Made by a program: the position numbers and the translations under genes. Under the pieces are notes generated by a model. The model was not told the DNA's origin. It did no database searches and saw only the letters and a list, made by a program, of their open reading frames with translations. 64,000 bases of DNA from Zygnema cylindricum (Eukaryota > Streptophyta > Zygnematophyceae > Zygnematales > Zygnemataceae), in NCBI GenBank assembly GCA_037447655.1, contig JBBHKE010000771.1:330337-394336 (forward strand), in the 5' to 3' direction. Positions 25,641-54,272 of this stretch are shown one piece after another; position 1 is the first letter of the stretch; every line of letters starts with the position of its first letter.

Positions 25641-25699
25641 AAAGATGAAACAAAAGAGGAAAGAGATCTTGACCTCACAAGCAATGAAGGCGTCCTCTA

Positions 25700-25965: not shown

Positions 25966-26189
25966 GGCAGAAACACGGAAAAATCAAATACATGCGGGGT
26001 GGACTACCGTTTGAAGTGCAGTCCTGAACCTAGAGGTCTTGCACTTGTCGCAAACGCATTTCTCCCAAAATCAAGTGAGGAGAATCCACCTAAGGTAGAA
26101 TCTGCAAATTGACAAAAAACCAGAAACGTCAACCAACAAGTCTGAAATACCAGTCAAGACCGAGCAAAACTCCAAAATGCCAAGCTATA

Positions 26190-31989: not shown

Positions 31990-32470
31990 ATGTGCAACAC
32001 TAGATGATTACGGCTGGAAAAATCTGGGAGTCTAAGTATACCGGCGGTACCATAGCTGAGTATTGTTATAGTCTTAGAACACTAATAATAGAAAATGCAT
32101 GTTCAGGTGGTGCGTTTCTTGATGATCTACAAGTTTTGTTCCTAATGAGAAGGCTTTCTAGTGAATATAAAAGAGTCTCTAACAATCTGGAAAAACTCGC
32201 ACAAGCTAATTGGAATTTAGCGATTGCAATTCAGTATGTCATAGATGAAGAGTCTAGTCAAAAAACATTTAAAGGTATTAGACGGGCAGAAGCTTTTAAC
32301 CCGTAGACTTTTAAAAATGAATAGTTTCAAAATAGTCACAATCAAGTTCCTCGCAAACCTCACATATGTTATTATTGTAATGCAAAATAACATGGATATA
32401 GGAGCTGCCCTGATTATATACAAGCTTCTGAGAAAAGTGTATTTCGGCAAAGATGGTTTATCAGAAAAAT
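31990..32470 (+). pseudogene. copia-2 gag with zinc knuckle
   Basis: The 100-codon frame at 32,004-32,306 reads KIWESKYTGGTIAEYCYSLR, FLDDLQVLFLMRRLSSEYKR, typical of copia capsid (L..LP..Y). Near 32,367 another frame gives CYYCNAK, a TAA stop, HGYRSCPDY. The Cys-Cys-His-Cys ligands are all present, with the stop standing where Gly is usual. Confidence 0.8.
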
Positions 32471-32589
32471 TGAAAATTCGACAACCTACAAAAACGTCGG
32501 CTTTTTCTTCGGAGACGAACAAAAATGATGATGAAATCCTCACTTTTTCCGAACCATCTGACAAAATATTATTTGCGCTGAACAATAGA

Positions 32590-32860
32590 ACTAAAAGAGA
32601 TAAAGACTTTGGGAGGATCATGGATACCGGTGCGTCTCAACATTTGTGTTTGAACGGAGCATATTTTGATAATCTTCACCTAATATCTCCGTAGAAAATT
32701 TATTATGCGGAATGACAGTTTGTCATATCTGACGCTAAAAGCACGACAACACTCAAAGTTCTTATTGACGGTAAACAAGTTGAAAAAACACTTAACGATG
32801 TTCTTTATGTTCTTGACTTCAAGAAAAACCTCTTCACTACTTCGCTCGTAGAAAGCAAAG
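32590..32860 (+). pseudogene. copia-2 protease
   Basis: GRIMDTGASQHLCLNGAYF near 32,612 holds the active-site Asp-Thr-Gly-Ala. After a stop near 32,692, KVLIDGKQVEKTLNDVLYV and LDFKKNLF follow, the normal copia continuation. Confidence 0.85.
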
Positions 32861-33004
32861 TTTTGGTTTTGAAGTGTTGCTGAAAAATAGGAAACAAGTA
32901 GTCAGTAAACAAGGTAGAGCAGCACTTATAGGAACTGGTGGTCCAAATCTGATGTATAGGCTTGATATTGCCAATTTTAATGAAAAAGATGTTTAGTATT
33001 CGGC

Positions 33005-33860
33005 TGTTTTGTTTGACAATAACTCATGGCATAAAAAACTTGGTCATATCCACTATGAAAATCTTGACAGAATGGTTAAAGAAGGTATAAATTCAAGAGT
33101 CAAAATCAATAGCAAAGAAGAACATTTTTGTGATGGATGTGCTCTCGGAAAGTTTCATAAAAATCCTTTTCCTTTCGAAAAGAGCCATAGAGCAACTAGA
33201 GTGTTAGAAGTAATTCACTTTGATATATGGAGACTGGCTCTGATACCATCACCTGGTGGACTTCGTTTCATGGTGACCTTTACAGATGACTATTCTAGGT
33301 TCACAAAAATCTATTTTATGAAAGAAAAAAGTAAGGTGCTCTCTCATTTCAAATAATTCAAGATATAGAGCGAAAAAATTCACGGGGTTCCTATCTTACC
33401 GTTGAGATTAGACAATGGCGAGGAGTACTTATCACGTGATTTCATCAACTATCTTAAAGAAAACGAAATTTCTCGTCATTTAACGGTACCATATTTTCCA
33501 GAAGAGAATGGTGTAGCTGAGAGAGTTAACAAGACACTATCACATAGTGCTAGATCAATGGTGGCAGACAAAATATAAATGATATATTCTTGTTTGAAGC
33601 CTTCAATTGTGCGGCATACATTAAAGATAAAATTATAATCTAGAGCAGTAAAAAATGAGACGCCGTAAGAATTATGGACAGGAACCAAACCAGAAGTTAG
33701 TCACTTTAGTGTATTTGGAAGCAATATTGTCATGTTAGATAATTCTCCACTTAAATGGAAAATGGAGCCAAAAGGTGTAGCGTGAATCTTACTAGGCTAT
33801 GATAATCAATCAAAAAGATATAGAGTATACTTATATGATGAAAAAAAAAATCTTTGTCAC
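33005..33860 (+). pseudogene. copia-2 integrase
   Basis: WHKKLGHIHYENLDRMVKEG and FCDGCALGKFHKNPFP form the HHCC zinc-binding part (frame 33,009-33,356). VIHFDIW and FTDDYSRFTKIYFMK begin the core, LRLDNGEEYLS and PYFPEENGVAERVNKTLSH (near 33,490-33,540) carry the later catalytic residues, and LLGYDNQSKRYRVY closes the domain. All three catalytic acidic residues appear present although the frame is interrupted by stops near 33,355 and 33,580. Confidence 0.85.
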
Positions 33861-34379
33861 TAGAACTATTAGAATTAAAGATGAAGAGAAGTCAGTTGAT
33901 GTCTTTTAAATGATTCCAGAGAAAAAGGCTAAGAAAATTGCTGAATATGTTATTCTGGAACATAATTGGGCCAATCTTGAGTATAAGAGAAACACCGAAC
34001 ACGAATAGCGATGAGAATGTCTCATCGCTGAATTAGCGACAAGTTGAAGTCGTCGCTGACCCTTCGATAGAAAAAGTTGGAGACGTCAACAAACCACAGG
34101 ACCAAACTGACCCGACTTTGAACTTTCGACGAATTGATCCAATTGCTAAACCACGAATCAGCAAAAATACAGAAATTAGCGACGAAACAACGTCGTCGCT
34201 GAACAAGCGACGAGAGCATCTTGTCGCTAACTTACCGAATCAAAACACAAATGGATAGACAATCTCACAAAAACGCAATGTAAGGCTTCCATCAATTTCA
34301 GCCATAGACTTTCTAGGGGGAAGAAAGACAAGTAATCGACAGAATGCAAGTGCAAACTAATATCGAATCAATACAAATT

Positions 34380-35210
34380 TTTGAGGAGCCTCTCACCATT
34401 CAGTAAGCGTTCTCTCCACCGGAGAAAGAACAGTGGGTAGCACCAGCAAATGACGAAATCAAATCGATTATGGAGGCCCAAACGTGGGAACTTGTGGAAC
34501 TTCTTCCGGATCGTAAAACAATTTGGAGTAAGTGGGTCTTTAAAGTAAAGCTTATTATAGATAATACCATCGAAAGATACAAAACTAGGTTAGTAGCAAA
34601 GGGTTATAATCAAAAAGAAAGAATTGATTATGAAGAGACATTTTTACCAGTTGTCAAATTTCCAACAGTCCGTATTTTGTTAACACTGGCAACCATAGAA
34701 AATATACAAATACATCAAATGGATGTTAAGAGTGCCTTCTTACAAGGGGAATTAGAAGAAGTTATTTATGTGAAACAACCAAAAATGTACCAAGAGAAAG
34801 GGATAAAAAATTTGGTGTGCAAACTACTGAAATCACTTTATGGGCTCAAGCTGGCCTCAAAGGAATATAATCTAATATTAGACGAGTATTTGACTAGTCC
34901 TGGTTTCACTACGATTAGTTATGATCATTCAGTTTTTTTCTATAGAAAAAGAAGATGGAACATTTTTTTTTGCGATATATGTTGATGACTTGTTCATTAT
35001 TTCAAAAACAATAGAGGGTATTAACAAAATCAAAACGGCTATAAAATATAGATTTGAAAAGAAAAATTTAGGGGAGGCATAATATATTTTTGGTATACAA
35101 GTAGATAAAGAAAGGACTAAAAGAAATAATAGACTTAATTAAAAAGAGGCTAAAGGGAATATGTTGGAAAAATTTGACAAAAATGATGTAAAAAGAGTTA
35201 CCATTCCTTT
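34380..35210 (+). pseudogene. copia-2 reverse transcriptase
   Basis: The 171-codon frame 34,470-34,985 has QTWELVELLPDRKTIWSKW, RYKTRLVAKGYNQKERIDYE, HQMDVKSAFLQGELEEVIYV and CKLLKSLYGLK. A one-base shift in a T run breaks it just before IYVDDLFIISK (about 34,975), where YVDD is intact. Downstream, stops stand where GEAKYI-like and LSQKEA-like residues are expected (35,081; 35,142). Confidence 0.88.
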
Positions 35211-35329
35211 GGAATTCAGACATAAATTCGAGAGAGCAAAAATAGACTCAGGAATAATTGTGGAAGAAAATCTACAAATAGGGGAGTCAGAATTCATGGA
35301 AAAGATTCCAATCGACAAAATGTTTGGAG

Positions 35330-35945
35330 TCTAATTTATTTTATGAATTGCACGCGTCCGGATATTGCGGTAGCAAAAGATGCTCTAAGCAAAAGTCTGC
35401 AGAATCCAAGAAAATCAGATTGGGAGGCAAGAAACGAGTGTTAAGATACTTGGCAAGGACTCGAGTGTTCAAACTAACTCTAGGTGGAGACGAAGTATAA
35501 CTTTAAACGTTGAGTGATGCCAGCTACGGTGAGATGCCGAGCAGACGATCAACAACGAATATGTTTTACAAGTAGAAAACAGAACGTGTTGCTGAAGCGG
35601 CAAGCTTTAGAAGATCACTGCCCAATCGAAAAAAGAGGCAGAATGCATGGCTGCATGCTCAGCCATCAAGGAATTGCTATGGGTTAAATCTATGCTCCAA
35701 AACCTATGCTTCATGCAAAATGGTGTGCAAAATTTTTGGTGTGACATTCAAGCTGCCATCGCCATTGCATCTAATCCCGCACATCATTTCAAAAGAAAAC
35801 ATATAGATATCAGACTTTATTTTGTTCGAGAAAATGTCTTTGCCAAAATTGTGAAACTTTGTTATTTACCGGATTAGAAAATGGTGGCTGACATGTTCAC
35901 AAAGGCCTAACTCGGTCCCAAGTTATAGTTTTGCAGAGATGGTTG
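35330..35945 (+). pseudogene. copia-2 RNase H
   Basis: SLIYFMNCTRPDIAVAKDAL (about 35,328), AECMAACSAIKELLWVKSML (35,640), FWCDIQAAIAIASNPAHHFK, RKHIDIRLYFVRE and MVADMFTKA follow the copia RNase H order. Frame changes occur between blocks, and stops fall at 35,876, 35,908 and 35,926. Confidence 0.85.
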
Positions 35946-36895
35946 TGGGTTAAGTGGTTTAAAGAGTTTAAACCTTTAGGAGAATCTTTGTTTATAAAAG
36001 CTTTAGTCGTCTTTATATTTTGTGAGAGTAATATACATGACTTAACAAACATTTTCAAAACTTGTTTTAAAGTGTGTGTCAAAATTAGTTTGAATTGACA
36101 ATCTGGACTGTTTGGAACTAAAGATATCACATCGGACGGTTCTTAAGTAAAAGAAAGATTACGAAATGGCGCGCACTACTCAATTATGACATAGCGTCCG
36201 AAAGACAAGATTGGACAGACAAAAACCTACCAGAATCTGGAAATTGACCACAATGACGCCGCGACAAGTTTCGTCATGTATAATGTTTTCATGTCGGTGA
36301 TGACCTTGTGGAAACTGGAATTTGTCATCACACGTAGTTGTATATTAGTATGTACGGTTAGTGATAAACATCCGTAGACAATTAAGGTTCGTCTGTACTG
36401 TACAAAATAGTAGACACCATAGATGAATTTAACATACATCATGTATTTAGTTAGAGTACATTAGAGTACGATTAAATAGTACGATAACATTGATTACAGT
36501 GCTTTGATTGGCTAATTAGAAAATAGTAGAATTTATTTGTATAAATTTTAGGACTTAGTTGCTTTGATGTATTCCTTTTTATAAGGTTTCAAAGAGCACA
36601 TATGTGCAATTTAAGGGATATTTTTTGGGCTATATCTCTTGGGTTAATTGGGCGTTTTGCTTGGAACTTTGTGAATTGTTAACATACGCAGTAAACTGTA
36701 CTCTCATACAGTTTGGGGCAATTTGGCTATATTGACTGCTTTTGTGCACTCTCATACAGTTTGGGGCAATTTGGCCATATTGACTGCTTTTGTGCAGTGG
36801 ATCAAAGTTGGTATCTTAAGTGCTTCATATCTTCAGTTCTATGATGACTACTACTTCTACTACTTCAGCAACTGTTGGAGGAGCGCCGTCTGTCA
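35946..36895. other. Noncoding spacer between copia fragments
   Basis: Possibly the 3' untranslated part and LTR of copia-2. It includes taggacttagttgctttgat-type sequence and a 48-bp tandem duplication. No gene seen. Confidence 0.4.
36701..36796. repeat. 48-bp tandem duplication
   Basis: Two nearly identical units starting ctctcatacagtttggggca at 36,701 and 36,749, differing by a single base. Confidence 0.93.
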
Positions 36896-36899
36896 TTGA

Positions 36900-37380
36900 A
36901 CAACAATCACCACTTAGAAGGATGCCAGTTATAGAGATGTGCCTTTGAGACGATATACAATTGGATATGTGTTGCAAATTGGATGTGGTGCATGCTCCTG
37001 GAGTACCAAACAAAAAAAAGTAGTTGCTCAATCCACTATGGAGGCTGAGTACATGATTTCTTCTGCTGCCACTAAAAAAATTATGTGGGTAAAATCTTTA
37101 CGCGAAGAACTTGGGTTCATGAAATCTAAGACTCAGAATTTCTTTTGTGATAATGAAGCTGCTACTTCTATTATAGCTTATCCAAAACACCATTTCAAAG
37201 CTATATATATGGATATACGACTAAGCTTTGTCAAAGAGAAGGTTGAGAATAAAATAATTAAACAGGTTCATAAAAGTGATAAAGAGATGATTGCAGACTT
37301 GATAACAAAACCGGTGCATTCTCCTAAATTAAAATTCTGCAGAGAAAACTGTGGACTTCAATTAAAAATTGACTAAGATT
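36900..37380 (+). pseudogene. copia RNase H fragment (copia-3)
   Basis: The 145-codon frame 36,939-37,376 begins inside RNase H (SWSTKQKKVVAQSTMEAEYM), continues FFCDNEAATSIIAYPKHHFK and IYMDIRLSFVKEKVENK, and ends ADLITKPVHSPKLKFCRENC. It is uninterrupted and ends with the usual short tail, so it is younger or less decayed than copia-2. Everything upstream (RT, integrase, gag) is missing. Confidence 0.85.
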
Positions 37381-37699: not shown

Positions 37700-38060
37700 T
37701 AGTCAAACGACGCTCGCGGACGCGAATCTAACCGTGTAAAATACATGATCGGACATACGTCGTCGCCCTGCTAAACCCGAATGAATATTTGAAGGATTTC
37801 AAACAGCGCGGCCTGCTTGGTCATGTGGTGACACATCATTAGACGCTGTGAAAGATGGGAGGAGGAACGATGGCTCCCAAGTTGACAAGTGTTAACCAGA
37901 TGGCCAAGTTGTACAATGGCCGTACAAAATGTATAATCGGTCACTGTACCTTCTTGTACTTCACACTCTTTTGATTGGCCTAGGGTAAAGTAGTAGGTAG
38001 ATATGAGTAAGAGTTAATGGACTTAGCGTATTTGAGGCACCTCTCTCTCGGTGACCTTTT
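37700..38060 (+). mobile_element. Element-A type LTR fragment, opposite orientation
   Basis: The sequence gttgtacaatggccgtacaa through cttgtac, tcttttgattgg and ggacttag, gcacctctctctc matches the reverse complement of the LTR beside element A (44,220-44,560). It therefore lies in plus orientation and abuts the truncated 3' end of A. Confidence 0.6.
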
Positions 38061-38159
38061 ATATTTATATGTTTATATTTGGCTAACCATAACTTACTAC
38101 TTAAAGGAGCAAATTCAATGATTCTTTTTGTGTTTGACTCAAGAGAGTATTGTCCTCAT

Positions 38160-38575
38160 AGGGGTGAGGGTGGTCAAAATAGTTTTGTGCCTGGGTGGCA
38201 TTTATTGAGTGAGAAAGGTAAAGGGGCAAATGTTATTCTAGAGACTTTACATAGGCTGCTAATTTTGTGGGTTAACGAAAACCACACAAGCCTTATGGGT
38301 AATGGTTGGAGGGTAATTTGCCGATTGCTAAAAAAAGTGCACATACGATCAACTATTCCACATTTGTGTAATACCAATGCGATATCAAATTGCATCCTAT
38401 ACCACCAATAGCGTGCTTGCAGCAGGCTTAAGGTGCGTTTGGTCCCATAGTGACCCAGCTCGGCGTGAATTTGTTATATCACCGAGAGGTGTTCAGTCGA
38501 GCGGGGCATGTGTCTTTGACTGCCGTCTGCTAACAATCAAACTATTGATCCACCTAACCAAATATATTTTTTAGC
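38160..38575 (-). pseudogene. Element A integrase, N-terminal part
   Basis: The minus strand reads IHAELGHYGTKRTLSLLQAH, then WWYRMQFDIALVLHKC and IVDRMCT, a complete gypsy HHCC zinc-binding domain. LQPLPIRLVWFSL, the usual entry to the catalytic core, follows. The catalytic core and PHD finger are absent. Confidence 0.75.
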
Positions 38576-39260
38576 TCTTTTCTTTACTCGTTCCTCCTCC
38601 TCGGATGTAGTGACTGGTCGGAAAGGTTCTGACAAGAAGAAAGGAATTAGTGCTCTATCCCTCCATTGATCTACAGCAGAACGGGAGTTGGTTAGCGAAG
38701 CTAAAGAATGTGTGATATAAGACGTTGCTGACATAGTTGCTAAGTCGTTATCTAAATCATGCCGGACTCCATTGTCTGTGGTCCTTGGCAAAGGATTTCT
38801 AGAAATGTCGTCTGCATTCAGGCTAAGTAATCTTGGACTATGACTTATTTCCACATCATATACTTGTAAAATTAATGCGTATTTCGCTAATTGTCTTGAC
38901 AGTTTATCGTTGTCATCAGCTAACGTAAAGGTTGATGGTTGGTTAGAAGTTTAAACAATTTTTTTTTTTATGTAAAAGTAGTGATGAAAGTGTATATTAC
39001 CCCAAAATGTCGCCAAACATTCTCTTCCCCAATTACTGTAATTTGACTCCGCATGATTATTATTTCTGCTTGCGTAAGCGACCACGATTTCTACTCTTGT
39101 TAGTTCACGCTGAGTTAAGATAGCCGCAATGCTAAATTTGCGACCACGATTTCTACTCTTGTTAGTTCACGCTGAGTTAAGATTGCCGCAATGCTAAGCT
39201 TTCCAAAGTCTGTTTGTAAGCAGAAAGGTAATTTGTGATTAGGAGGTTAAAAGATGGGAG
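38576..39260 (-). pseudogene. Element A RNase H
   Basis: VVAYASRNNNHAESNYSNWG (about 39,090) and ALILQVYDVEISHSPRLLSL, NADDISRNPLPR (38,880-38,770) correspond to the element B segments with the same words. RNase H degrades template RNA. A 62-bp tandem duplication interrupts the upstream side. Confidence 0.75.
39078..39201. repeat. 62-bp tandem duplication in element A RNase H
   Basis: gcgaccacgatttctactct recurs at 39,078 and 39,140 with near-identical continuation. The length is not a multiple of three, so it breaks the frame. Confidence 0.93.
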
Positions 39261-39399
39261 CACAAAAAAGGGTATCTTTGAACTTTTGGAAAACGGAAAT
39301 CTGATCAGGTCCTTTGAAAGGGACTTTTTTTTAAGTAGATCGTTCAATGGTGAAACGACATTGCTGAAACTAGGGACAAAATCTGTGATAAAAATTAGC

Positions 39400-40125
39400 T
39401 AGTATTAAGAAGGCTCGAAGACTCGTGAGATCAACGGGGGTAAGTAGTTTGTTGATAGCATCAGTTTTTGCTTTAAGTGGTGTGATTCATTAGGAGGAAA
39501 TGAAATTTCGAAGGTAAGGCACACCCTCGGACCGGAAAGTACATTTAGCTGGATGACATTTTAATCCGACCTTTTTCAGTTCAATTATAACCCATTCGAT
39601 ATAAGTTGCGTGATCTTCAATTGTGGCAGAGGCAATAATCAAATAATCAATATAACATCGTGCAAACTTGCAACCACCTAAAACTAAATCCATTACTTTT
39701 TGAAAAATTGTGGGGCGTTTCTTAAGTCCAAAAGGCATCACAGACCTTTCCCAACGACCATCACTACCCCAAAAAACTGTTTTATGCTTATCTTTCTCCT
39801 CTATTTGAATATGGTTAAAGCCTTGTCGTAAATCAATAATACTCAAATATTTAGCGCCTCCTACATGATCAAATTATTTTTTCGACCAATGGCATTGGAT
39901 GTCGATTTTGTATGGTTATAGCATTGAATTCACGGTAATCGTCGCACATTCGGTGATCGGTAAAGTTTCTTTCGGCATGTTTTTTTTGGGGCATGATAGT
40001 GGGTGTTGCAAAAAGAAAGTCCGACCGATTAATGAGGCCAGCTTCATCCAATTCAGTACAACGTTGGTCCGATAAATCCCTTTGCGTTTGAGATAAGCGT
40101 TGTTTTGGTTTTAAAATGGACGATT
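39400..40125 (-). pseudogene. Element A reverse transcriptase
   Basis: The minus strand carries RMCDDYREFNAITIQNRHPM, PLVEKI (frame 40,051-39,869) and then a 118-codon frame (39,846-39,490): IDLRQGFNHIQIEEKDKHKT, VMPFGLKKRPTIFQKVMDLV, CYIDYLIIAS. The catalytic YIDD has become YIDY by a single GAT-to-TAT change (element B keeps YIDD), so the enzyme is dead. GLKCHPAKCTF closes the palm and thumb region. Ty3/gypsy RT by motif and order. Confidence 0.88.
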
Positions 40126-40645
40126 GTCTTCGAGATTTATAGATATTTTATACATGGTATGGTGACCAAGATCATTCATTGTTAAAGAAAAAGTGTCGAT
40201 TTTTCCCAGAATCACTTTGTTTAGTAGATCATGTTCAGATTGAGAGAGATTAAAGCCAAATTTCCTTCTAGAAGTTTCCGAACCTTTAATCGTCATTGCT
40301 TCTATGGCTTGTTCAAAAGCTAGCTGTTCATCCGCGATAAATGACTAACCTAATGAGTAAACAACCGGTGTTTCCAGTAAGCAGTTTTTCCAATGGTGCC
40401 AGTTGCGAGCAGGAATGGTTGCGGTCAAGTGACGAGGTGTTGAAATATGACTAAAGGGAGTAGATTGGGCAGCATTATATGCCAGAATGGACCATGACAT
40501 GTGACTAAGATTCAAAAAATCGTAGATGGTGAGTTCTAGAGAAGGTTTTATAGACGATGGAAAGAGGAAAAAATAAAAAGGTGTCTCTCTAAAGGTGACT
40601 AGAGATCGTGTAGTTATAGGTTTTGAAAATGATGATGCATTTCCC
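40126..40645 (-). pseudogene. Conserved linker between methyltransferase and RT, element A
   Basis: The frame reads IYDFLNLSHMSWSILAYNAA, WHHWKNCLLETPVVYSL, then ADEQLAFEQAIEAMTIKGSE, KFGFNLSQSEHDLLNKV and MNDLGHHTMYKISIN. Each block recurs in element B (IYDFLNPRHMSWCIPAYTAV; ADE, LALGQAMETMT; MNDLGRHTAYKMSI), and most also in copy C at 59,446-59,912. The last block is the usual short segment ahead of gypsy RT. The first two have no function I can name and may belong to the methyltransferase C-terminus. Confidence 0.65.
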
Positions 40646-40680
40646 CCCCAGCTGGTTGTGACTGATGGATTTGTGCGTAA

Positions 40681-40872
40681 CGACCTGTTGCAAATATGAG
40701 GCCTAAAACAAATGAGAGAGATTGAGGGTCCATAACACAACCCGCAAAAATGAATCGCTGTCGTTTTGTGAGACCACGACCTGTTGCAAATCCGAGGCCT
40801 AAGACAAATAAGAGAGATTGAGGGTCCATGACACGACCTAAAAAGATAAATCGTTGTCGTTTTGTGAGACCA
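40681..40872. repeat. 96-bp in-frame duplication of methyltransferase motif X
   Basis: Units begin at 40,681 and 40,777. They encode LTKRQRFIF..VMDPQSL..FVLGL twice, 32 residues apart, in one open frame. Elements B and C have one copy. Confidence 0.92.
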
Positions 40873-41019
40873 TGTGTAGTAGTAGTGTTGGGAACGAAAT
40901 ACATAAGGTGTTCTTGTTCTGTGGCTGTAGGTTCATCTTGGCCGCTGTGTGAATATTGTATGAGCACGCCAGGCCCATCACTAGAGAAAGTATGAGAGTG
41001 TGGATAAAACACTAAAGAA

Positions 41020-41149
41020 GGGAGAACTTTGAGTGGCTGACCTGAGAAGTTAATATTGTAATTCCGCTGGTGATCAAGGTGCAAGGGAGAACTTTGATTG
41101 GTTTACTTGAGACGTTAATGTTGTAATTCGGCGAGTGATCAAGCTGTAG
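41020..41149. repeat. 65-bp out-of-frame duplication splitting the methyltransferase
   Basis: gggagaactttga recurs at 41,020 and 41,085, with parallel continuations (taatattgtaattc / taatgttgtaattc). It repeats the peptide NYNINxSxxPxKVLP in two different frames, explaining why the methyltransferase is open on each side but not across. Confidence 0.9.
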
Positions 41150-42179
41150 GCATATTTGGACTTTGTGAAATCGAAGAAGTGCAGTCTGAATATCGGTAAG
41201 AAAGGATCTGACATAAAGATTTCTTTCTCTAAAGCGACCAATATCAATCATGTTGGTCCATTTAGATCGGACCCAATGAGCTAAGGACCCGTGACGAGCG
41301 CCATCAATGATAAGAAAAAGACTAATTAATGTTTCTATCCGTTTGTAATCAGCTAACACTGTAGGTCGAATATCGTTATAGGCTGCCACGTTTTCCAAAA
41401 TATATCCCAATGGTCGATCTAATGATTGCAAAAAATGCATGATACAAAGTAATTCAAAGAAAAGTTTAGTGCGAGGATCAGCTAAGCCGAGATCTTTGCG
41501 TGCTCTTGACATGTCGTGACACTCCCAACCCGCATAAAAAAGATTGATTAGTTCCACATCGAGGAGGTGTTGATTGCTTATCAATCGAATATCTTGAGGC
41601 AAGGCCGTATGCATGTGAGCAAAGGCAGATTTGGGGAAAAGATCTGGATATTTTTTGTTTAAAAGATTACAGTGATGTGTTTGGGCTTTCCAAGCTAAAG
41701 GGTCAGTGTCAACTAAGTAGTAGTGCTTGATAAGTACTTCGTTGCGAAAGCATGAGTGTAGAGAGGTACCTATGCTTGCGAATAGGTATAAAATAACCAG
41801 ACTATCTTGATGAGGTTTGACTTTAATTGGCTTCCAATTGATGGGAAGAAATCCGAAAGGATCTACAAAAATGAAAAGAAAAGATAGAACTCGCGATAAT
41901 GGAATCTGAAGTGTGTGTTTGTACATGTGATCAAACTCGCGAGAATCATTTAAAAAACCTAGATTATCGAAAAGTTCAGGCAAAGAAAGACTGTCAGGCA
42001 AAATTTCCTTTGCGGATATAAAATGAAAAAATCTCAAATCCCACCGAATTTTCGAAATATGCTGGGACAGATTGGGTTGCGTGAGCCATAATGGGTTTGG
42101 GTTGTCGTGTTGAAATTAGTGGTAGACAAATTTTCTTTTACGGATAATTCGAAAGACGCTAAAAAAAAATCTAATTGTA

Positions 42180-42620
42180 CATATCAACGCCGCCTCCTAC
42201 TTTGAAAATAACATATTGCCCCACTAAACAATCATAATCACTATATTTAGTGACCAATGCGTGAGCACGGATTTTCGTAAAATCATATTTTGTACCATTT
42301 TGAAACCTTAAACAGAGTGGATCCTTTGTAATGCCCAAAATTGGTTCGGTAGTTCCTGCTTATGTGAGTAAGCGTGTTGTGGTGGACTGAAGTTTATCAG
42401 CTATCAAACGTAGTTTTAGTGAAAAAGATGACCCAATAAAAATAGGTTTTGCACCGGTGTCCATAAGTGGTAGTGATGGTGTGACACCATGGACTGAAAA
42501 TGCCCTCTTCCCATTATCCAAAAAACTAATATGTGGGTCAAGTGAATTTCGCTTTTCGCCATAGATTGGCCTAAGAGCGTCCATATTACGATTCATCTGT
42601 AAAGTTTATATTGCTACAGA
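42180..42620 (-). pseudogene. Element A aspartic protease
   Basis: The 78-codon frame 42,596-42,360 ends PLMDTGAKPIFIGSSFSLKL, with the active-site Asp-Thr-Gly-Ala. After a stop, GTTEPILGITKDPLCLRFQN, RAHALVTKYSDYDCLVGQYV follow. A matching Asp-Thr-Gly-Ala frame occurs in B at 52,539-52,778. The protease releases the polyprotein parts, presumably including the methyltransferase. Confidence 0.85.
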
Positions 42621-43050
42621 TGGGATCGATGAGGGGGTAGGTTTAAGATTGGGAGAATCAAGAAATCACAGTAGATAGAATACACAATTTTTCCTTAACC
42701 TTATGTTTGTCTTGGATAGAGCGGTCAAGAATATTGAGTGCTCCACCATGATGGTGGAAGCGGTTTTGGGCAAGTTAGTTACAATCTCTTTATAGAATGA
42801 TTATAAGAGACGCGTGCTTGATTGTTTACCTTCGCGATTGTGATCAAATGTTCCATTTTTAAACGTGGTGGCTCGCTTTTGGATGGTTGGATGTCGTTAA
42901 ACTCGACCACCTAGCTTAGGAAGATGGACAACTGTACGGGCCATACTAGTTAGGTGAGTTGGCGGTTTCATTTGAGCCATAAAGGCTGCAAACTGGTCTT
43001 TGATCATAGCGGCCATTTGAGTTTGCATTTTTTTTTTTTTTTTTCTCTCC
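42621..43050 (-). other. Element A region between gag and protease
   Basis: Homologous words occur in B at 52,850-53,350 (for example catagcggccatttg-type sequence near 43,005 and 53,310). No domain recognised, and a poly-T run lies at 43,028-43,044. Confidence 0.4.
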
Positions 43051-43965
43051 GAGACCCTTTTGGTGGGGAGCTTTTTTCTGGCACTTTAAATGGTTTGACT
43101 TCTGTGGCATAATAGCCAGTATTCCACCATTTCAAATCTGATTTTCATACGAAATTTAGGGTTTTTAATGTGACAACGATACAAAAAAGTGGCCGGTCTA
43201 ATTGCAGTGTGTATAGGTCTGAAATTAATCCGGACACATCCAAGCATCATGCACGGTCTTGCTACATCGAAAACAAATCCTATTGGATGGTTGATTTGGT
43301 GGGGTTCCCATGGCTGGGACCCTTGTGACCGATTATTCGGCCCCAAGTTACGAGGATTTGGTGAATTGAAATGGTTAGGTTCTTTTTGAGGGGCTTTAGG
43401 TCTCTCGTGGGCCTTCCACCAACAATTTGTCATCTCGTATTCTATGGTCTATTGAGCTATCTGGTCAAAAGTAAATTTGAGACTGTAATTTTGGGTAAGA
43501 TGGTTTTGAATAAATTTCTTTCACTTGAAAAAAAAATGTACAACAAACTTCTGGACAGTTTCAGCATCTGATATTAGATCGCGTAACGCTTCGCGCAAGG
43601 TTTCCATGCGAGCTCGTAAAGCAGTGGCAGTTTCGCCCGGTTAACGCTCAAAATTCATTAATTTCTTCACTTAGTTAAGATTTTGCATACGATACTCTTT
43701 TTGTAACAAATTAAACATTAGGGTGAGAGGGTCTGGTAACGGGATAGTAAACCCTGGTCGTATCGAGACGGCGGCTCGGGCTGCAATGGCATATTAGAGG
43801 GGAACCTCCGCCAGAGCCAGGTAAAGAACATTGCTAACCGCATGTAAGACCTCGAGAATAGCAGCTTGAAAAAAAAAATTCTGCTTGACCTATGGCCTCG
43901 AGCGTACCAGCAAACTGTGGAGAATATTCGTTTATCGCAAATATGCCATCGCACTTGGGAGAATA
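43051..43965 (-). pseudogene. Element A gag with zinc knuckle
   Basis: On the minus strand, broken frames give MQNL, a TAA stop, VKKLMNFE, ALRARMETLREALRDLISDA, KKFIQ and KFTFDQIAQ, EYEMTNCWWKAHE. Each block parallels element B gag. Downstream a knuckle reads CFRCSKTVHDAWMC (about 43,270-43,230), with all four Cys-Cys-His-Cys ligands. A second knuckle is degenerate. The first stop stands where B has Gln. Confidence 0.75.
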
Positions 43966-43984
43966 TAAGGTATGGGCAAAACTA

Positions 43985-44730
43985 TAACTCTAAGACCTCT
44001 GTCGGTCCTCAGAGTAGGTAGCTCACACGAAGCCTCTAGGATAAGCGTGACCCTTTTGTGTTTTAGCAAGAATAACTACCACCCTGACAGACAAAAACTT
44101 TGACCACCTTCACCCTGTGAAAGCAAGACTCTGCTGAGTCGATAGCAAAAAGAATCTATAAATTTGCTCCACTGAGTAGTAAGTTATGAAAGGTAAAACT
44201 TGACATTTTGTACAGAAGCTCTCTGGGAGAGAGGGTCCTATCTATGTAATTTTTCTAAGTCCTATCTCTCTCTAAAACTCTATCTACAAAAGTACGCCAC
44301 CAATCATAATACTGTATCGTACAGAAATGTACAGGCGCCGATGTACTTTCTATACGGCCATTGTACGACATGGCGAATAAGTCGACACATGTCATTTTAG
44401 ATTCGATCTTGAAATCCCTAAAGATGTCGTATACCAATATGCTTGTGCCACGTGTCATTCAATGTGACGTTGACCGCAAACCGCCGAAAACTAATCCACA
44501 ATCTTGGCATGCCTCGCGACTGTTTGATTAAAACGGATTTCAATTGTAGTCGTCATAAATACTTGCGCGATATTTGTTTCGCCTTCGTAACGAATTCCGC
44601 GGTATGTGTTTCGCATATTCCAAACGCCGTACATTACAAACTGCTTCTATGCCCAAATATCCTGTTAAATGAAATGACCTACGTGTATAGATTTATCTAT
44701 TTATTCAACCCTATATCGTAAAACTTTGAT
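43985..44730 (-). repeat. LTR beside element A gag (5' LTR)
   Basis: The segment aligns with 58,440-59,060 and 60,405-60,820 in the same orientation and with 37,700-38,060 reversed. Shared words include caccctg, ctctgagcaaaa-type, gtatcgtacagaaatgtac and tacggccattgtac. Internal sequence leading to gag starts about 43,985. Ends are approximate. Confidence 0.65.
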
Positions 44731-44732
44731 TC

Positions 44733-44799
44733 TAGTCTAATTGGTTAAGGCTACCGGCTAGAGTAAACTTTGACGGATATATGTACCAGGTTCAAATAT
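44733..44799 (+). ncRNA. Pol III-type A and B boxes, possible SINE head
   Basis: tagtctaattgg (44,733-44,744) fits the tRNA A-box consensus at every fixed position, and ggttcaaatat (44,789-44,799) is close to a B box. They lie about 45 bases apart between the LTR of element A and the 3' LTR of B. A cloverleaf is not evident. A tRNA-derived SINE or chance is possible. Confidence 0.3.
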
Positions 44800-45016
44800 T
44801 GGGTTCGTCAAGTTCTATTTTGGTAAATCTACCAATCTAAAGTTTGTCATCGTCTAGATAGCATAGGCAGCCATGGCTCTATCTCCCTCTCCAACTTTTA
44901 GTGATTGCGACAAATGTGGGAGCTGGAGAGAGGAGTTAGAGGCAAACTGCATGTGATTCTTTTCTGCATTTTACACAACCTACAAAATACTAAAATAACC
45001 TTTAATTTTTACAAGA

Positions 45017-46296
45017 ACCATGAAGGTAACGCCCGAGAAAAGAGAAAACGATACGCATGTTAACTCTATCTTGATAACGGAAAGCTAGATCTCGCATTTC
45101 AGTGTCGAATAACATTGGAAAATGAGATAAACTCAAAGTATGCTTTATTCCGGAAAAGCTAAATTGAAGTTTACTAGGATTATCCATCGGTGTGGAGGAC
45201 ATCGAAAGAGAAGAGTTAGTCGAATTGAAAGCCTGAATCAATGTTAACAGAGACCAAAAAGAAAGAAAACCTGAATCGGGTTCCTTTTCTTTATCAACCT
45301 CTTCCACAAGTAGAGTGGATAAAATGGATTACAAAGATAAGACGGTGGGTAAATCTAAACGAGTAGAAGACCCTCTAGATTGAATTAAAGGACTTAACGT
45401 CAAAAGAACCGAAATTGATAAATTCAATTGATTCAAATTTGATGAACGGAAAGTTTCAACACTACGTGTAGATCCGTATGAGTGGTCTAGATTATCCCAA
45501 TCAGTGGGCATAAAAATGACTGAGATAAAAACCTAATCCGCTAATAGATATGCCTTATACGACGTGTAGCAAATGCCATACCATTCCACATACGTAGGAA
45601 ACAATCTCAACCAGTCTCTAACAAGGCCAAGATGGCCAAATCTGGTCAAGAGGTCGCTTTTACCGAAACCTCTACCTTGTAAACGACTGGGCAAGGCAGA
45701 AAAACCACATCTATAAAGGCAGAAAATTGCTAAACAAACACCAAGAGGTGTAGATTTAAAGTTCTAAAGACAGAAAATAGTTCTATCCAAGGCCACCAAC
45801 AGCCAGATCTAACAATAAAATTCCACGCCAAACAGTTAATAATAAAAACACAAGACCACTCATAGCTAGATGACAAGCATAAAAAGCGTCGACAGTGCAG
45901 ATGCTCGATACAATTTAGACGAATGGGACCCAATCCACTCACGTACCCTCTAAACGATCAACAAGTATTCTGACACGCGCTTGTATCCGCAAGGTATTGT
46001 GAACTTACAAACCAATCTTTGCAATTTGGTGATTGCCAAGGGTGAACAGCGGTTGTTCGCTCCAATATGAGTTTTGCAGAGCTCTAAATAAAAAACGAAT
46101 ATGCTCTACTATCTCCACTTTTGGGTGAAGTATGTCACAATGTGAAAGATCGATGCATTCGATCAACAACGAGCTAGCAAGAAAACCCTAAATACCGAAA
46201 TTAATGTAGCATATTCTTGGTTAAAAAACTGGCCAATGAGATATTTAGGTCAACTAACAAGCAAACAATAATAAAAATCGCAAAACTATTTATATA

Positions 46297-47869: not shown

Positions 47870-49330
47870 AGGAGCTTGCGAACACGACTAGAAGCTCGCG
47901 ACATCCGTGGCAAAACCATTGACTATCCAGAACTGCCAACAATGGTGGCACTAAACACTCCATGTTAAACCCGTGATTGCAATGATCACAAAGTAACATT
48001 GTAAGTTTCCTCGTTCAATCGATGACAAAAAATACATGCTGTCGCCTCCGTTATAGCCATCCGCATAGGATCCATATCCTGCGACAAATCTGGTAAACAT
48101 CATGGAGCACAATTCTTGGAGTGCTGTCGAAAAGTCCTCGTGTCCTCTCTTTGTAATCTCAACATCCCGTTTGGATCCACCTCCATAATCCGTAGGATGT
48201 GTGCAGAAACATTTGTGTCCAAAGTGGCAAAAGATTGCTTGAAAGATAAACATAATCTTCCAAACAAAAAGGCTTCTGTTGCGGCCTTTAACTGCCGCTT
48301 CGAGTGGTGGCAAACCGAAATGTGTCTCGATGTTGGGCAATCTATAGTCTATTAAAAGCCATGGGCATTTCACGGGTAAAAAGCAAAGCAAGACGAGTAA
48401 GTTCTTCCAAAAAAAATAATGTCAAACATTAGTGGGAGAGGAAACTTGCATCTTTTTGAATATTGCAATCGAGAAATGGTTGTCGCCCAAATAAAACATA
48501 TTACGGGTTGAAATTAGCCTTACTAGCTTGACTTGACATGTGATATCCCATGGAAATATAGCCGAGAGACTCGTCTTTAACCGAAATGTGTTTCTCTAAG
48601 CAATGCTTACGCAAGGCGCGCTTAAATGTCTGGACTGCACCTGCAGCTAGGCCATCGGCTTGGGGGTGATCCCGACTAGTACATTGATGATCAATGAGAG
48701 CCTCATCAAGCATCTCTTGAAATTCTCCCGAAATTCTGTACCTTGAACCGTTGGGACCTCAGCTGAGAACCGTATCTCATAAGAATACTTTATTTAAAAG
48801 TTGCGGTGATTAACTTAATTTTCTTATGAGGCAAGGCTACAACTTCTACCCACTTACTGAAGTTTTTGATCATAATCATGATATACTGTTTTCCTCTACG
48901 TGAGATGGGAAAAGCTCCGGCTAGATCAACAAACCATTGATAGAATAAATCCCTAATGGCTTAAGGTTGGAACGTAGTCTGCCGATTAAAGAAAGAAGTT
49001 TGGAGAGGGTCGCAAGTGGCACACTTGTGTAAAATAGCAACAACATTGGCTTACATTTCTGACCACCAATACTGTGCTTGAACTAGGCTTAACGTCCGCT
49101 TGGTACTATAGTGACCAAGCCTGTGTGAATTTGCTCAATTAGAGAAAGTCGCTCTGTAGGACGAGGGACGTGTCTATGGCTCCATCTGCCAACAACCAAA
49201 CTAAAGATCATCCGAGCCAAAGGTAGTTTTGGCCCTCTTTTTAACTCTGTCTTCTTCGCCAGAGGTAGTACTGTCCTTAAGGTCTGGGTCGATAGAAATA
49301 GTATAAGAGGCCCATTACCCCAAAGATCTG
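47870..49330 (-). pseudogene. Element B integrase with C-terminal PHD finger
   Basis: From high to low coordinates: RLSLIEQIHTGLV (zinc-binding part, about 49,140), an eroded core, then the 70-codon frame 48,713-48,501 with SRDHPQADGLAAGAVQTFKR (core end; the catalytic Glu of the usual LAERAVQT is Gly). LTRLALLFTREMPMAF and TRSGS, RPQQKPF follow, as in copy E. A PHD finger near 48,045-47,900 reads CIFCHRLNEET, then MLLCDHCNHGFNMECLVPPL and WFCHGC. One frame change lies within it, and the PHD His is Asn. A PHD reader could direct integration to marked chromatin (inference). Confidence 0.78.
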
Positions 49331-49399
49331 TGGCGGGATAAGGCTTTGGAATAGAAGCCAGACAATAAGTAAGATAAGACTCTACTAACATGGCCAGAA

Positions 49400-49925
49400 C
49401 ATCCTCGACATCGAAATCTGTCGAACTCCGTTATCCGTCATACGAGCAAAGGATTTTGGGATATTCCGTCGGCATTTAGACTAAGCAGACTCGGTCGGTG
49501 AATTATTTCAATGTCATATTCTTTTAGAATTAAAGCCCTTCGGGCTTGTTTCCTAGAAAGCTTATCGTTAATCATCAGCCAATGCAAGGGCTGATGATCA
49601 GTTAGGTGTGTGAAAGGTTTTCCATACATATAATGGAAGAAGTGAACGACTCCCAAAACCGCGGCTAGACACTCTCCTTCGTAGCTATTGTAATTTGATT
49701 CAACCCTGTTATTGCTTCTACTCGCATAAGTAACTCTCTGTTCACCTCTTTTTGTGTCAGGATGGCAGAATTCCGGGTTTTCCAAAATCTGTTTGGAGAC
49801 AAAAAAAGAGTTTGTCATTGAAAGAGGAGAATTAGAGCACTCGATAAGGCGATTTCTTAATTTTTGAAATGCCAAAATCTGATCACGACCCCATGTAAAG
49901 GCCACTTCTTTCTTTAGAAAACGTT
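49400..49925 (-). pseudogene. Element B RNase H
   Basis: The 155-codon frame 49,905-49,438 begins AFTWGRDQILAFQKLRNRL and contains VTYASRSNNRVESNYNSYEG, ECLAAVLGVVHFFHYMYGK, LTDHQPLHWLM and NADGISQNPL, a nearly uninterrupted gypsy RNase H with the catalytic Glu of YxSYEGE and Asp of TDHQ. Confidence 0.88.
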
Positions 49926-50760
49926 TAACGGAGGTGTGATTGTGATGAAATTAAACACGAATCTTGAATAACAATAAGCAAGTCCGAGAAAGGCTCGCAG
50001 ACTTGTGAGGTTTGTGAGAGCTGGCAATTTAATTATTGCCTCTACCTTTGCTTCGAGAGAAGTGATCCCTTCAACCAAAATAAAATGGTCGAGTGAGGAC
50101 ACTCCCTCGGCTCCAAAGGTGCATTTTGCTGGATGACATTTTAATCTGACCATTTTTAGTCCAATCAATACCTATTCGATGTGAGTTGCGTGATCTTCAA
50201 TAATAGCAGAGGCAATGATGAGGTCATCGATGTAACATCTAGCAAACTTAGAACCTCGAAACATAGAGTCCATGACTTTTTGAAATACCGCCGAATCATT
50301 TTTCAGTCCAAATAACATTACGACCCATTCCCATCGAGCGTCACTACCCGAAAGGCAGTTTTATGCTGATCTTTTTCCCCTGTCTCAATTTGATTCAATC
50401 ATTGACGGGGTCAAGGATACTAAAATACTTTGCTCAACCTACGTGATCAAATTTTTCTTCACACATTCGATATTCAGTAAAATTACCCTCGGAATCCTTT
50501 TTCCAAGGCATGACAGTGAGAGCTGGAAATGTGGAGTCTTCCTCCTCTAGTTCAACACATCGTGTGTCTACCTTCCCATATAGTTTTATGTTAGACGATG
50601 TTTTAGTTTAAATTTTAGGAAGTCATCTTCAAAGATATTGACATCTTATACGCGGTGTGGCGACCCAAATCGTTCATAGAAAAAGCAAAGGCAATAACAT
50701 TTTGTAGAACGTCTTTCTGAAATTTTTATTCGGCCTTTGTTAGATTAGTGTCAAATTTCC
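49926..50760 (-). pseudogene. Element B reverse transcriptase
   Basis: FARCYIDDLIIASAIIEDHA near 50,245-50,190 keeps the catalytic YIDD intact. LKCHPAKCTFGAEGVSSLDH, LEAKVEAIIKLPALTNLTSL, RAFLGLAYCYSRFV follow (frame 50,168-49,914). Earlier motifs (about 50,600-50,300) are heavily eroded. MNDLGRHTAYKMSI marks the upstream edge. Confidence 0.85.
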
Positions 50761-51110
50761 ACTTAGAAGCTTCAGGGTTGTCCGTTGTCATGGTTTCCAT
50801 AGCTTGTCCTAAAGCCAACTACTCATCTGCGATAAGCGCTTGCTCTAACTCGTAAGCCGTAGGTGTTTGTTTAAGGCAATTCACCGAATGATTCCAGCTG
50901 CGTGTTGGAAAAGCAACAATCCAATTAGGAGTGGGTGGATCATGTATGAAACTTGCAAACTTGACAGCCGTGTATGCGGGAATACACCAAGACATATGTC
51001 TAGGATTAAGGAAATCGTAGATAAAGATTTCCGAACAGGTGGAATTCGAAAAGGAAAAAAGAAAAATTGAAATGTGGTCCCTTAGAGAGTAGAATGGAAA
51101 TATTTACTAA
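50761..51110 (-). pseudogene. Conserved linker between methyltransferase and RT, element B
   Basis: IYDFLNPRHMSWCIPAYTAV, WNHSVNCLKQTPTAYELEQA and a TAA, LALGQAMETMT correspond to element A and copy C. The function is unknown. Conservation in three copies argues that it is a real part of the polyprotein. Confidence 0.6.
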
Positions 51111-52270
51111 GTGATGCATTCCCTCCCCCATCTGGTTGAGACGGATGTTTGTGAGAGTAGCGACCAATTTCAAACCTAACACCTAAAACAAAAAAAAGAC
51201 TGAGGGTCCATGACACGACCTAATAAAGTGCATCTTTGACGTTTTGTAAGACCAGAAGCGGGTGTAATGCCATGGATGAAATGCATGAAGTGTTCTCGCT
51301 CAGTAAAGGTAGGCTCTTCGAGCTCGCTGGTATGAATGTTTCGGAGCATGTCAAGAGCGTCATTAGAAAATGTGTGTGAATGTGGGTAACAAACTAAGGG
51401 AGGATGAACCTTAAAGGTTGACAGAAGACATTGATATTAAAATTTTTATGACAGTTCTTTTGAATGGAAGGCTGCCCCTTATAGAAAGGAAGCAGGGCAG
51501 TCTGAATGTCCGTAAAAAGAAGACAAACTGACAAGTTGGCCTCACGGAGTTGACAAATGTTTATCACGTTCGTCCATTTAGAGAGAGCCCGATACGCTAA
51601 CGAACCATGGCGAGTGGCGTCAATATAAAGGGGCGGACCAATTAATTGTTTAATTCGTTGATAATCAGCCAGAACCGCAGGTCTTCAATCATTAAAGGAC
51701 GCAACATTTTCCAAGATATATCCTATTGGATTATCTAAAGTTTGTAGAAAATGCAGCATGCGAACCAATTCAAAAAATAATTTAGTGCGGGGATTGACCA
51801 AACCAAAAAATTTCCCTGCCCGAGACATTCCTTAGCACTCCTATCCGCCAAAAACTAGATCGACCGGCCCAATTTCTAATAAGTGATGGTTCCTCACAAT
51901 CTGGATGTGTTGTGGGAGGGTAGTATGCATATGCTCGTATGTAGATTTTGGTAACAAATGCGGGTATTGGGTATAAAACAGATTACAATGATGTAATTGT
52001 GCTTTCTTTGCTAACGGATCAATCTCAACCGTATAATAAAATCAGATAAATAATCCATTCCGCAAACATGCTAGGAGGGAAGTGCCTATTCCAACGAAAA
52101 GGTAAAAAATAACCAATCCATTTGGATTAGGTTGCAATTGAACCGTATTATAATAAATGGGAAGAAACCTCGAAGAGTTTGTTGGGAGTGGGATTGGAGG
52201 AGAGATCGGAGAAAGTGGAATTGACAAGGTTTTGATATAAATTCGGTCAAATTCGCTCGTATCTATAAGA
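51111..52270 (-). pseudogene. C5 cytosine DNA methyltransferase of element B
   Basis: Motif I YLFVGIGTS (about 52,115-52,090) keeps the Phe-x-Gly-x-Gly of the S-adenosylmethionine site. Motif II YYTVEIDPLAKKA follows a stop. LPQHIQIVRNHHLLEIGPVD leads to motif IV: FGG, a TAG where A has Trp, Glu-Cys, a TAA, GMSRAGKFFGLVNPRTKL (about 51,850-51,795). LFFELVRML, then motif VI YILENVAS (about 51,720) and motif VIII AYRALSKWTN follow. EREHFMHFIHG and LTKRQRCTLLGRVMDPQS (about 51,285-51,205) give motifs IX-X. Glu again precedes the catalytic Cys, as in A. Stops make it inactive. Protease lies upstream, and linker and RT downstream. Confidence 0.87.
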
Positions 52271-52499
52271 AAACCTGTGTCACCGAAATTTTTAGTAAGT
52301 AAGAACTATCGGGCTAATTTTCTTCAGCTCACAATGAATGAAATATTTCAGCCCCCACCGAATTCCTTGAAAATGTAAGTATGGATATGGTCGAATTAGC
52401 CATAAAACGCATGGGCTCTTCAACAGATATTAGCAGAATACAGATTTTGCGTTCTGGGAAGTTAATAGGCCTATAAGAAAATGTCTTATCATGTAGGTC

Positions 52500-52840
52500 A
52501 AACTCAACTCCTTACACAAAATATAACGTCCTGTCCCACTAGGCATTCATTGTCACTAAATTTAGTGACCAGAGCGTGAACCGTGATCTCAGCAAAGTTT
52601 GTGGTCGTTCGTTTTGGAACTTGAAAACAGACGGTTCCTTAGTGATTCTTAAGTCTTGCTCGGTTGTACCCGCTGATGTTAACAGGCGAGTAGAAGTGGA
52701 TTGATGCTTGTCTAGAGTTAGACTAAGCTTGAGTGCATAGCTACAGCCCAATATCACTCGCTTTGCACCCGTATCCATAAGAGGCAGGGAAGGGGCTATA
52801 CCATCAACAATGCACTATTCCCGTTATCGAAAAGACTAAT
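52500..52840 (-). pseudogene. Element B aspartic protease
   Basis: The 79-codon frame 52,778-52,539 starts MDTGAKRVILGCSYALKLSL, with Asp-Thr-Gly-Ala, then DKHQSTSTRLLTSAGTTEQD and RFTLWSLNLVTMNA. It is the direct counterpart of element A protease (MDTGAKPIFIGSSFSLKLRL). Confidence 0.85.
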
Positions 52841-53339
52841 ATGAGGATCGAGGGAATTTTGTTCCTCTATCGAAATAGGCTAGTGGAAGCAAGATTTTTG
52901 TGCAGCTAAAGTGCTTGTAATGCGGCAGTTGCTGCTGAGCTATCGGAGGTAAAGGAGATAAAAGAGATTTTTGGTGAGTCGGAAATTATAGTCGATAGAA
53001 TGCACAACATTCATTCACGCGGTTTGCCTCGTATATAGTTCGATCCACCAGGTTAAAAGCTTCAAGCGCGAAGGTTGAAGCGATTTCAGGTAAGAAAAGA
53101 GAAGGTTCTTAAGTGAATGACAAAAGGATGATGTTTTACCGTCACGGCGGTGATCCGTCGAACCTTTGTAAAACGTAGCCTCTCGTTGTTAGATGGTAGA
53201 ATATCCTAAGATTCGACCTGCCAACTTAGGGATGTGTAAAACTGTGCGAGTTATGCATGTAAAATGTGGCTTCATTTGAGTCATAAAGGATGCAAATCGT
53301 TCCTTCATCATAGCCGCCATTTGCGCTTGCATTTCCAAA

Positions 53340-54265
53340 TGCTCTCTTTCTTCAGAATACCTTAGGTGTAGTGGTGTTTTTCTCTAGTTCTTTAACCGGT
53401 TGAACAAGTTTTGCAGATCGAGCGGGAATGCCACCTATGTTAAATTGGTTCTGATAGGAAAATTATAGGTTCTACATATCACAACTTTAGACATAATGTT
53501 CGGTTTGCTTGCAATATGTACAGTTAGCAGTTTTGTCTGGAGACATTCGGGCATCATCCCCGTCTTCCCCCGTCGAAAACATAATCGGTTTCCAAGAGCA
53601 ACAGGTGGGGTCGTCATAGGTAAGACTTTAAGAGGTCGTTATTAGGGCGAGGATTGTTCCACGGTGGAACAATCCATTCTTTCGAGACCGCTTTAAGACG
53701 GTATAGGCTTCCCACCAACAATTTTGCATTTCGTATTCCACGGCATGCTTGGCGGCTTGGTCGAAAGTGAACATCAAGCCGTAGGTTTGAGTCATGCTAC
53801 TCTGGATAAATTTCTTTGACTGACTCAAAAACAGTCCTACATATTTCTGGACATCTTCAGCATTCGACATTAAGTCTGGCAATGCTTCACGAAGAGTTTC
53901 CATACGAGCACGCATGGTTGGGGCCGTCTCTCTTAATTTCTGTTCGAAGTTCATTAACTCACGAATTTGGTCAAGGTTTTGCATATGGTATTCCCCTTGC
54001 AACATTTCAAACATCAGAGAGAGCGAATCCAATATAAGGATCGTCATCGCTTGTCTTGCTGCGATTCGAGCACGCAGCTATATGGAACTGTTACTGTATT
54101 TCTCCAATTACTGTTGTAATAACATCACCGTTGAGATCAAAGACTTTCGAAATAGCCGGTTGGTAGGAAATTTATGGTTGTCCTATGATACCAAAACTCC
54201 TAGTGAAAGCTGGAGAAAACTTTGTCATCGCATGGACACAATCATACTTGGGGGAATAAAGAGTA
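53340..54265 (-). pseudogene. Element B gag with two zinc knuckles
   Basis: The 139-codon frame 54,047-53,628 reads MFEMLQGEYHMQNLDQIREL, MNFEQKLRETAPTMRARMET, LREALPDLMSNAEDVQKYVG, FTFDQAAKHAVEYEMQNCWW, a largely helical capsid-like protein. Near 53,590-53,480 follow a degenerate knuckle (CFRRGKTG) and a second one, CTYCKQTEHYV, a TAA, SC, with all four ligands. Gag packages RNA in the particle. Confidence 0.8.
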
Positions 54266-54272
54266 AATGCCA

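Follow-up and report, generated by a model that had tools for sequence, protein, structure and literature searches.

A cytosine DNA methyltransferase (C5-MT; hereafter MT) lies inside the pol region of Ty3/gypsy retrotransposons in a 64,000-nucleotide stretch of Zygnema cylindricum DNA (the window); the assignment as Dnmt3-like and its recurrence within the window are both supported. The identity of the domain, its place in the element, its repeated occurrence, and past purifying selection on it are shown here. We propose, with a probability of roughly 0.55, that a Ty3/gypsy lineage carries this Dnmt3-fold C5-MT as a fixed Pol domain and that the enzyme acted on new cDNA or at the integration site.

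Identity of the methyltransferase domain

In element copy A, the MT occupies a minus-strand frame at 41015-42115 (367 codons, stop to stop). The PF00145 comparison suggested by an earlier note on this DNA gave a Pfam match at E 5.7e-6 and 26.4 bits, above the cut-off of 22. The best PDB match was DNMT3A (E 5.6e-4), and DNMT3 was ranked above the others by predicted fold, with the motifs unpermuted; in the structure model, catalytic loop residues 200-206 have pLDDT <50. A search against 5.8 billion proteins returned one match at E ≤1e-3, P0001 (E 1.7e-7; 1729 candidates). With P0001 and then an alignment as the query, at least 26 more relatives, all from ENA, were recovered among the 120 of 196 matches listed; the 27 proteins are designated P0001-P0027.

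The catalytic part of the copy A MT (motifs I to VIII; 41084-41812, minus) carries the PF00145 match and the DNMT3 fold. It is preceded by a conserved stretch (41813-42115, minus; profile MTn) that matched no Pfam family and is kept in copy B and at 18.6-18.8 kb. A C-terminal block (C-block; 40815-41102, minus) follows in a frame different from the rest of the MT. The MT frame breaks at a tandem duplication of ~65 bp (41018-41146, minus; halves 41018-41081 and 41083-41146), and a second duplication of ~97 bp lies inside the C-block. Alignment with the relatives places motif I first and gives the order I-II-IV-VI-VIII-C-block. The earlier note had described C5-MT motifs in order on the minus strand; the order was borne out, but the C-terminal block of copy A stands in another frame. 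Its label "Dnmt3/DRM-like" is upheld for DNMT3, by fold and unpermuted motifs, and not for DRM. A DRM origin was rejected because the motif order differs: DRM2 chains carry motifs I-IV C-terminally (match at residues 226-351 of 352-357).

Architecture of the elements

Copy A (38306-46294, minus; 38.3 to 46.3 kb) is a broken Ty3/gypsy element collinear with copy B (48504-55548, minus), which shows the same order and contains many stops and frameshifts. Both read, entirely on the minus strand, gag-like block, protease, MT, spacer, reverse transcriptase (RT), RNase H, and integrase. RT-RNase H-integrase is the domain order of Ty3/gypsy, and the single-strand order protease-RT-RNase H-integrase assigns A and B to this group, with the protease recognized by its motif and by conservation between the copies. 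The placement of the MT between a DTGA protease and a gypsy RT on the same strand, as the earlier note had it, was confirmed in both copies by Pfam matches and A/B conservation, the protease being below the Pfam cut-off.

The gag-like block of copy A (43383-43778, minus) is 55% identical to that of B (E 1.8e-42) and contains four stops; ORF 43089-43448, which overlaps it, matched no Pfam family, and ~1 kb has been inserted in gag. The aspartyl protease block with DTGA (42198-42605, minus) shares 66% identity with its B counterpart across 44 residues. Its only Pfam match is RVP_2 at E 0.24, and that of the copy B protease (52542-52882, minus) is Asp_protease_2 at E 0.0089; both are below the cut-off, and the call in either copy rests on the motif and on A/B conservation. 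The stretch ahead of the MT fills ~300 bp between protease and MT. On the other side lies a putative MT-RT spacer (40351-40581, minus) that is 42% identical to B and whose B copy matched no Pfam family. The RT of copy A (39493-40147, minus) is split between two frames; 39493-39873 matches RVT_1 (E 4.8e-18), and the piece at 39872-40147 has no Pfam match alone and aligns with B. RNase H (38789-39127, minus) is 54% identical to that of B, and ORF 38540-38950 in this region had no Pfam match. Only the zinc-binding part of integrase is left (38306-38473, minus; Integrase_H2C2 E 1.9e-9), the 3' end of the element having been lost within this domain.

In copy B, the MT (51397-52299, minus) shares 52% identity with the copy A MT (E 3e-95), scores 87.1 bits with the profile of relatives described below, and has four stops in the aligned frame; its C-terminal block (51197-51418, minus) matches both the relatives and a profile built from them. 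RT and RNase H follow at 49441-50357 (minus; RVT_1 E 3.9e-7, RT_RNaseH E 1.2e-19) and integrase at 48793-49122 (minus; rve E 0.0016, below the cut-off). Self-comparison of the window revealed no LTR pair, other repeats having broken into the integrase end of both copies, and no DIRS-like repeats, the ends of A and B being missing.

Recurrence within the window

Three further copies, all on the minus strand, retain parts of the same arrangement. Copy D (59251-60389) contains the C-terminal half of the MT, the spacer, and the start of RT. Copy E (18581-19146) contains the end of the protease (14.6 bits) followed by the stretch ahead of the MT (MTn, 53.6 bits); a weaker plus-strand MTn match lies beside it at 18400-18579 (11.7 bits). 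Copy C (6509-6892) is a more distant remnant of the MT core (31.5 bits), with no protease or RT found alongside at 6.5-6.9 kb. The earlier note's statement that the order recurs is therefore correct for the whole of B and part of 59.2-60.4 kb, and the copy it placed at 6.4-7.6 kb is an MT only.

Recurrence was examined with a profile built from 18 relatives and no window rows, which was searched against 132 pieces from the six-frame translation of the window. Matches above 8 bits were confined to A (67.9 bits at 41090-41812 and 31.4 bits in the C-block), B (87.1, 62.6, and 24.4 bits), D (59952-60350, 21.4 bits), and C (6632-6892, 20.4 bits), all on the minus strand. Twenty shuffles of all window pieces gave at best 3.4 bits. 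The relatives were found via copy A, so the matches at the other three places are an independent test. When the C-block of A was shuffled 200 times and compared with the 18 relatives, one shuffle reached 16.4 bits and the next 8.0, against 36.2 for the real sequence; shuffles of the B C-block reached 7.7 bits against 32.4. Chance similarity was rejected on the profile-shuffle comparison and on the constraint on the MT described below.

Past selection and present decay

Comparison of the MTs of A and B gave pN 0.272 and pS 0.763 over 296 codons. Synonymous sites are saturated, so dN/dS is not computable for the whole MT; the 89 of 300 bootstraps in which it could be computed gave 0.105-0.216 (95%). 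The MT C-block gave pN/pS of 0.232/0.638 and 0.229/0.500. Values elsewhere in the element were 0.163/0.669 (dN/dS 0.11) and 0.256/0.739 for RT, 0.256/0.864 for gag, 0.224/0.873, 0.258/0.726, and 0.168/0.756 for protease, 0.283/0.867 for RNase H, 0.307/0.765 for the spacer, and 0.250/0.734 for integrase. The MT was under past purifying selection about as strict as that on the rest of the element, and the resemblance to the other domains indicates that it was maintained as a protein-coding part. Copies C, D, and E also contain stops, and none of the copies in the window is intact. The CpG observed/expected ratio is 0.91 in A, 0.87 in B, and 0.88 in the window, so the elements are not strongly depleted of CpG.

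Active site

C5-MTases carry a proline before the catalytic cysteine of motif IV. The motif IV cysteine codon of copy A (41519-41521, minus) lies within A-G-W-E-C-H and aligns with the PCQ cysteine of the relatives. The preceding residue is Glu, not Pro, in both A and B; in B, the E-C is flanked by stops on both sides. Copy A keeps the motif IV Cys together with an intact motif VI E-N-V (41387-41395, minus), Glu included, of which E and V are invariant in the alignment with the relatives. The motif VIII RxR is complete in D and incomplete in A and B. As judged from sequence, Glu-Cys in motif IV may abolish catalysis. Copy C has R-W-P-Y-Q at motif IV, and from this W-P a proline form probably exists in the MT lineage.

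Relatives of the methyltransferase

Pfam scans of 17 of the 27 relatives found no protease or RT family. RNase H PF00075 was present on three of the 17 (P0020, P0022, and P0025) and PCIF1_WW PF12237 on four (P0002, below the cut-off, and P0018, P0023, and P0024); P0018 also has a weak Dam match (E 0.0056). Co-occurrence of PCIF1_WW with a C5-MT or its remnant on one protein would perhaps place two methylases in one retroelement-like ORF. The relatives probably belong to non-LTR retroelements; their RNase H is not of the gypsy type (PF17917/PF17919), and the scanned proteins showed no RT. PCQ is kept in 13 of 13 relatives aligned. P0017, P0018, and P0019 have SPPM in place of PPCQ and WDT in place of ENV, and are apparently catalytically dead MTs. 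DNMT2, a tRNA methyltransferase, heads the PDB matches of P0001, and DNMT3A heads those of P0006.

Pairwise scores were obtained against 137 proteins, namely the 27 relatives and 110 others. For the N-terminal part of the MT, the highest scores come from the relatives (A 49.6 bits, B 81.3), against 40.3 and 45.6 bits for the best phage protein. The C-block of A scores 27.7-36.2 bits with five relatives and 17.8-19.6 with four more, and that of B up to 32.4 bits; scores with the 110 other proteins are below 3 bits, leaving the relatives as the only matches among the 137. The DNMT3A and HaeIII rows of this set are fragments lacking the C-terminus, for which PDB searches were substituted, and the C-block matched no PDB chain at E 10. 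Viral contigs gave no relatives with single-protein queries and one locus with the alignment query (33% identity over ~80 residues). Prokaryote genome contigs gave at least nine loci, in which the matching stretch surrounds motifs IV-VI and spans 80-95 residues in seven and 77 and 136 in the others.

Phylogenetic placement

Fourteen of the 27 relatives entered the trees, as did 30 of the 32 proteins P0028-P0059, which passed the length filter into a tree of 54 rows and 194 columns. A and B join the 14 relatives in that tree (98/93), and this clade is nested in a larger group that adds DNMT3A, phage MTs, and one further protein (100/98). The join to the relatives holds when A or B is included singly (95/89 and 99/94), in trees from which P0054, P0055, P0057, and P0059 were also dropped for their long branches. 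Once the relatives are removed, the window MTs fall together with DNMT3A, the phage MTs, and one additional row (100/98). A clade of window MTs with DNMT3A, for which DNMT3 is a single, partial row, was not rejected (p 0.071, 0.107, and 0.295). The trees carry long-branch warnings, and the C-block was used as separate evidence. Against A, the top two phage C5-MTs reach 38.9-40.3 bits, and against B they reach 43.5-45.6. A phage origin was rejected: a single clade of window and phage MTs has p 0.008, and the phage C-termini are unmatched.

Other features of the window

A repeat of ~410 bp (R), 66-71% identical among copies, occurs at 37859-38284 (minus), 43986-44395 (plus), 58362-58787 (plus), and 60395-60801 (plus). 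The four copies found lie inside MT elements A and D, at their edges, or no more than 0.5 kb away, and one is inside the 1-kb gag insertion of A, which is absent from B. R was rejected as the element LTR because the copies on either side of A point in opposite directions and no copy turned up at B. Ty1/copia elements lie at 25309-28445 and 32217-37376 (both plus; RVT_2 E 1.3e-38 and 3e-42), with CpG observed/expected ratios of 0.74 and 0.79, below those of A and B. A reading frame at 8364-8783 (plus; YILPKMQKTP...PICSSVNS) had no Pfam match; its motif resembles that of a Penelope-like RT. Another repeat family, at 11054-13483 and 19343-21666, consists of diverged inverted and direct repeats of ~230-1016 bp with 71-77% identity. 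No Rfam family or tRNA was found in the window, and Pfam scans of a few ORFs outside the elements revealed no host gene.

Discussion

If the MT is a working part of the element, it would have been translated within Pol while the element was alive, and then released by cleavage or kept fused to RT. It would have been packed with the element RNA, travelling with RT in the particle, and would have acted on the cDNA before or at integration, or on the integration site. A new copy could thereby arrive methylated, or the host could read the copy as its own. Several observations weigh against this reading: Glu-Cys in motif IV of A and B, the low pLDDT of the modelled catalytic loop, decay of every copy in the window, CpG ratios showing no strong depletion, and the yeast result for the Klebsormidium enzyme cited below.

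The main rival is that the MT is integral to the element yet no longer methylates, acting like DNMT3L as a scaffold that binds SAM or nucleic acid. It holds that rank because Glu-Cys persists in a domain under selection and because P0017-P0019 lack the catalytic Cys, and ENV as well. In A, motif IV still has its Cys and motif VI its Glu, which speaks for catalysis instead, as do the W-P of copy C and the PCQ of all 13 aligned relatives; we regard the scaffold as possible, though less likely. A substrate of RNA rather than DNA, either the element RNA or the tRNA primer, seems improbable: the element genome is RNA and DNMT2 leads the PDB matches of P0001, but the window MT and P0006 match DNMT3A first, and the fold ranks DNMT3 top. 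It is very improbable that the MT is a host gene or pseudogene caught inside a retrotransposon through a chance insertion. Nested repeats do occur here, such as the 1 kb in gag of A; this reading is nonetheless already contradicted by an MT at the same place in A and B with synonymous sites saturated, by the protease-side junction in E and the RT-side junction in D, and by a constraint on the MT like that on RT.

Returning to the MT as a fixed, DNA-methylating Pol domain, retrotransposon-borne MTs have a published precedent in dinoflagellates and a charophyte, as the earlier note had stated. In Klebsormidium nitens, KnitGypsy-Dnmt3 is described as a gypsy element with an unrearranged Dnmt3 within Pol under purifying selection, and Symbiodinium has MTs in DIRS (SymbioDIRS-Dnmt3) and LINE (SymbioLINE-Dnmt) elements (de Mendoza et al. 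2018, PMC5890265). According to that report, the dinoflagellate DIRS Dnmt3 domains methylate CG when tested in yeast; no methylation was obtained there with the enzymes from LINE elements and from Klebsormidium, a result its authors call inconclusive (PMC5890265). A 2025 survey cites these MTs under LTR Copia and DIRS and counts LINE MTs among orphans (PMC12344493). Plant DNMT3 genes proper are reported from non-flowering streptophytes, gymnosperms included (PMC6453930).

As described, KnitGypsy-Dnmt3 shares with the window elements the Ty3/gypsy domain set, an unrearranged Dnmt3-type MT inside Pol, and purifying selection on the MT, in a comparison made by description with window pol frames that are broken (PMC5890265). 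It differs in its DIRS-like repeats, none of which were found in the window, where the ends of A and B are missing, and in key functional residues reported as conserved, against Glu-Cys in motif IV here (PMC5890265). SymbioDIRS-Dnmt3 and SymbioLINE-Dnmt are likewise retrotransposon-borne C5-MTs, of Dnmt3 type in DIRS, but belong to other classes (tyrosine recombinase DIRS and LINE) than Ty3/gypsy (PMC5890265). Animal DNMT3A/B/C have a PCN motif, and their PDB chains are among those that the C-block does not match. In orchids, gypsy elements bearing an m6A demethylase of the AlkB type have also captured a nucleic-acid modification enzyme, although one unrelated to the window MT and of opposite chemistry (PMC9289625). 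P0001-P0027 are the closest MT sequences among the matches listed; they supply the only matches to the C-block among the 137 proteins and group with the window MTs (14 rows), but unlike the window elements some have PF00075 RNase H or PCIF1_WW, and most of those examined have PCQ. Our literature search, in which subscription journals were thinly covered, recognized no further gypsy-borne C5-MT.

The window element thus joins a known kind, the gypsy-borne C5-MT. It is unusual in two respects: its motif IV reads Glu-Cys, and its MT has kin on other retroelement-like proteins. Tentatively, a retroelement-specific MT lineage marked by its private C-block might have moved between Ty3/gypsy and RNase H-bearing, probably non-LTR elements instead of being captured from a host each time, with Glu-Cys under selection in the gypsy branch suggesting altered chemistry or a non-catalytic role; we consider this doubtful as a whole.

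DNA methylation is a main route of transposon silencing in plants and animals, so a transposon that carries an MT is a paradox. A further lineage with an altered active site and kin outside its class would provide a system for asking whether such enzymes mark the element, disarm the host, or are used without catalysis.
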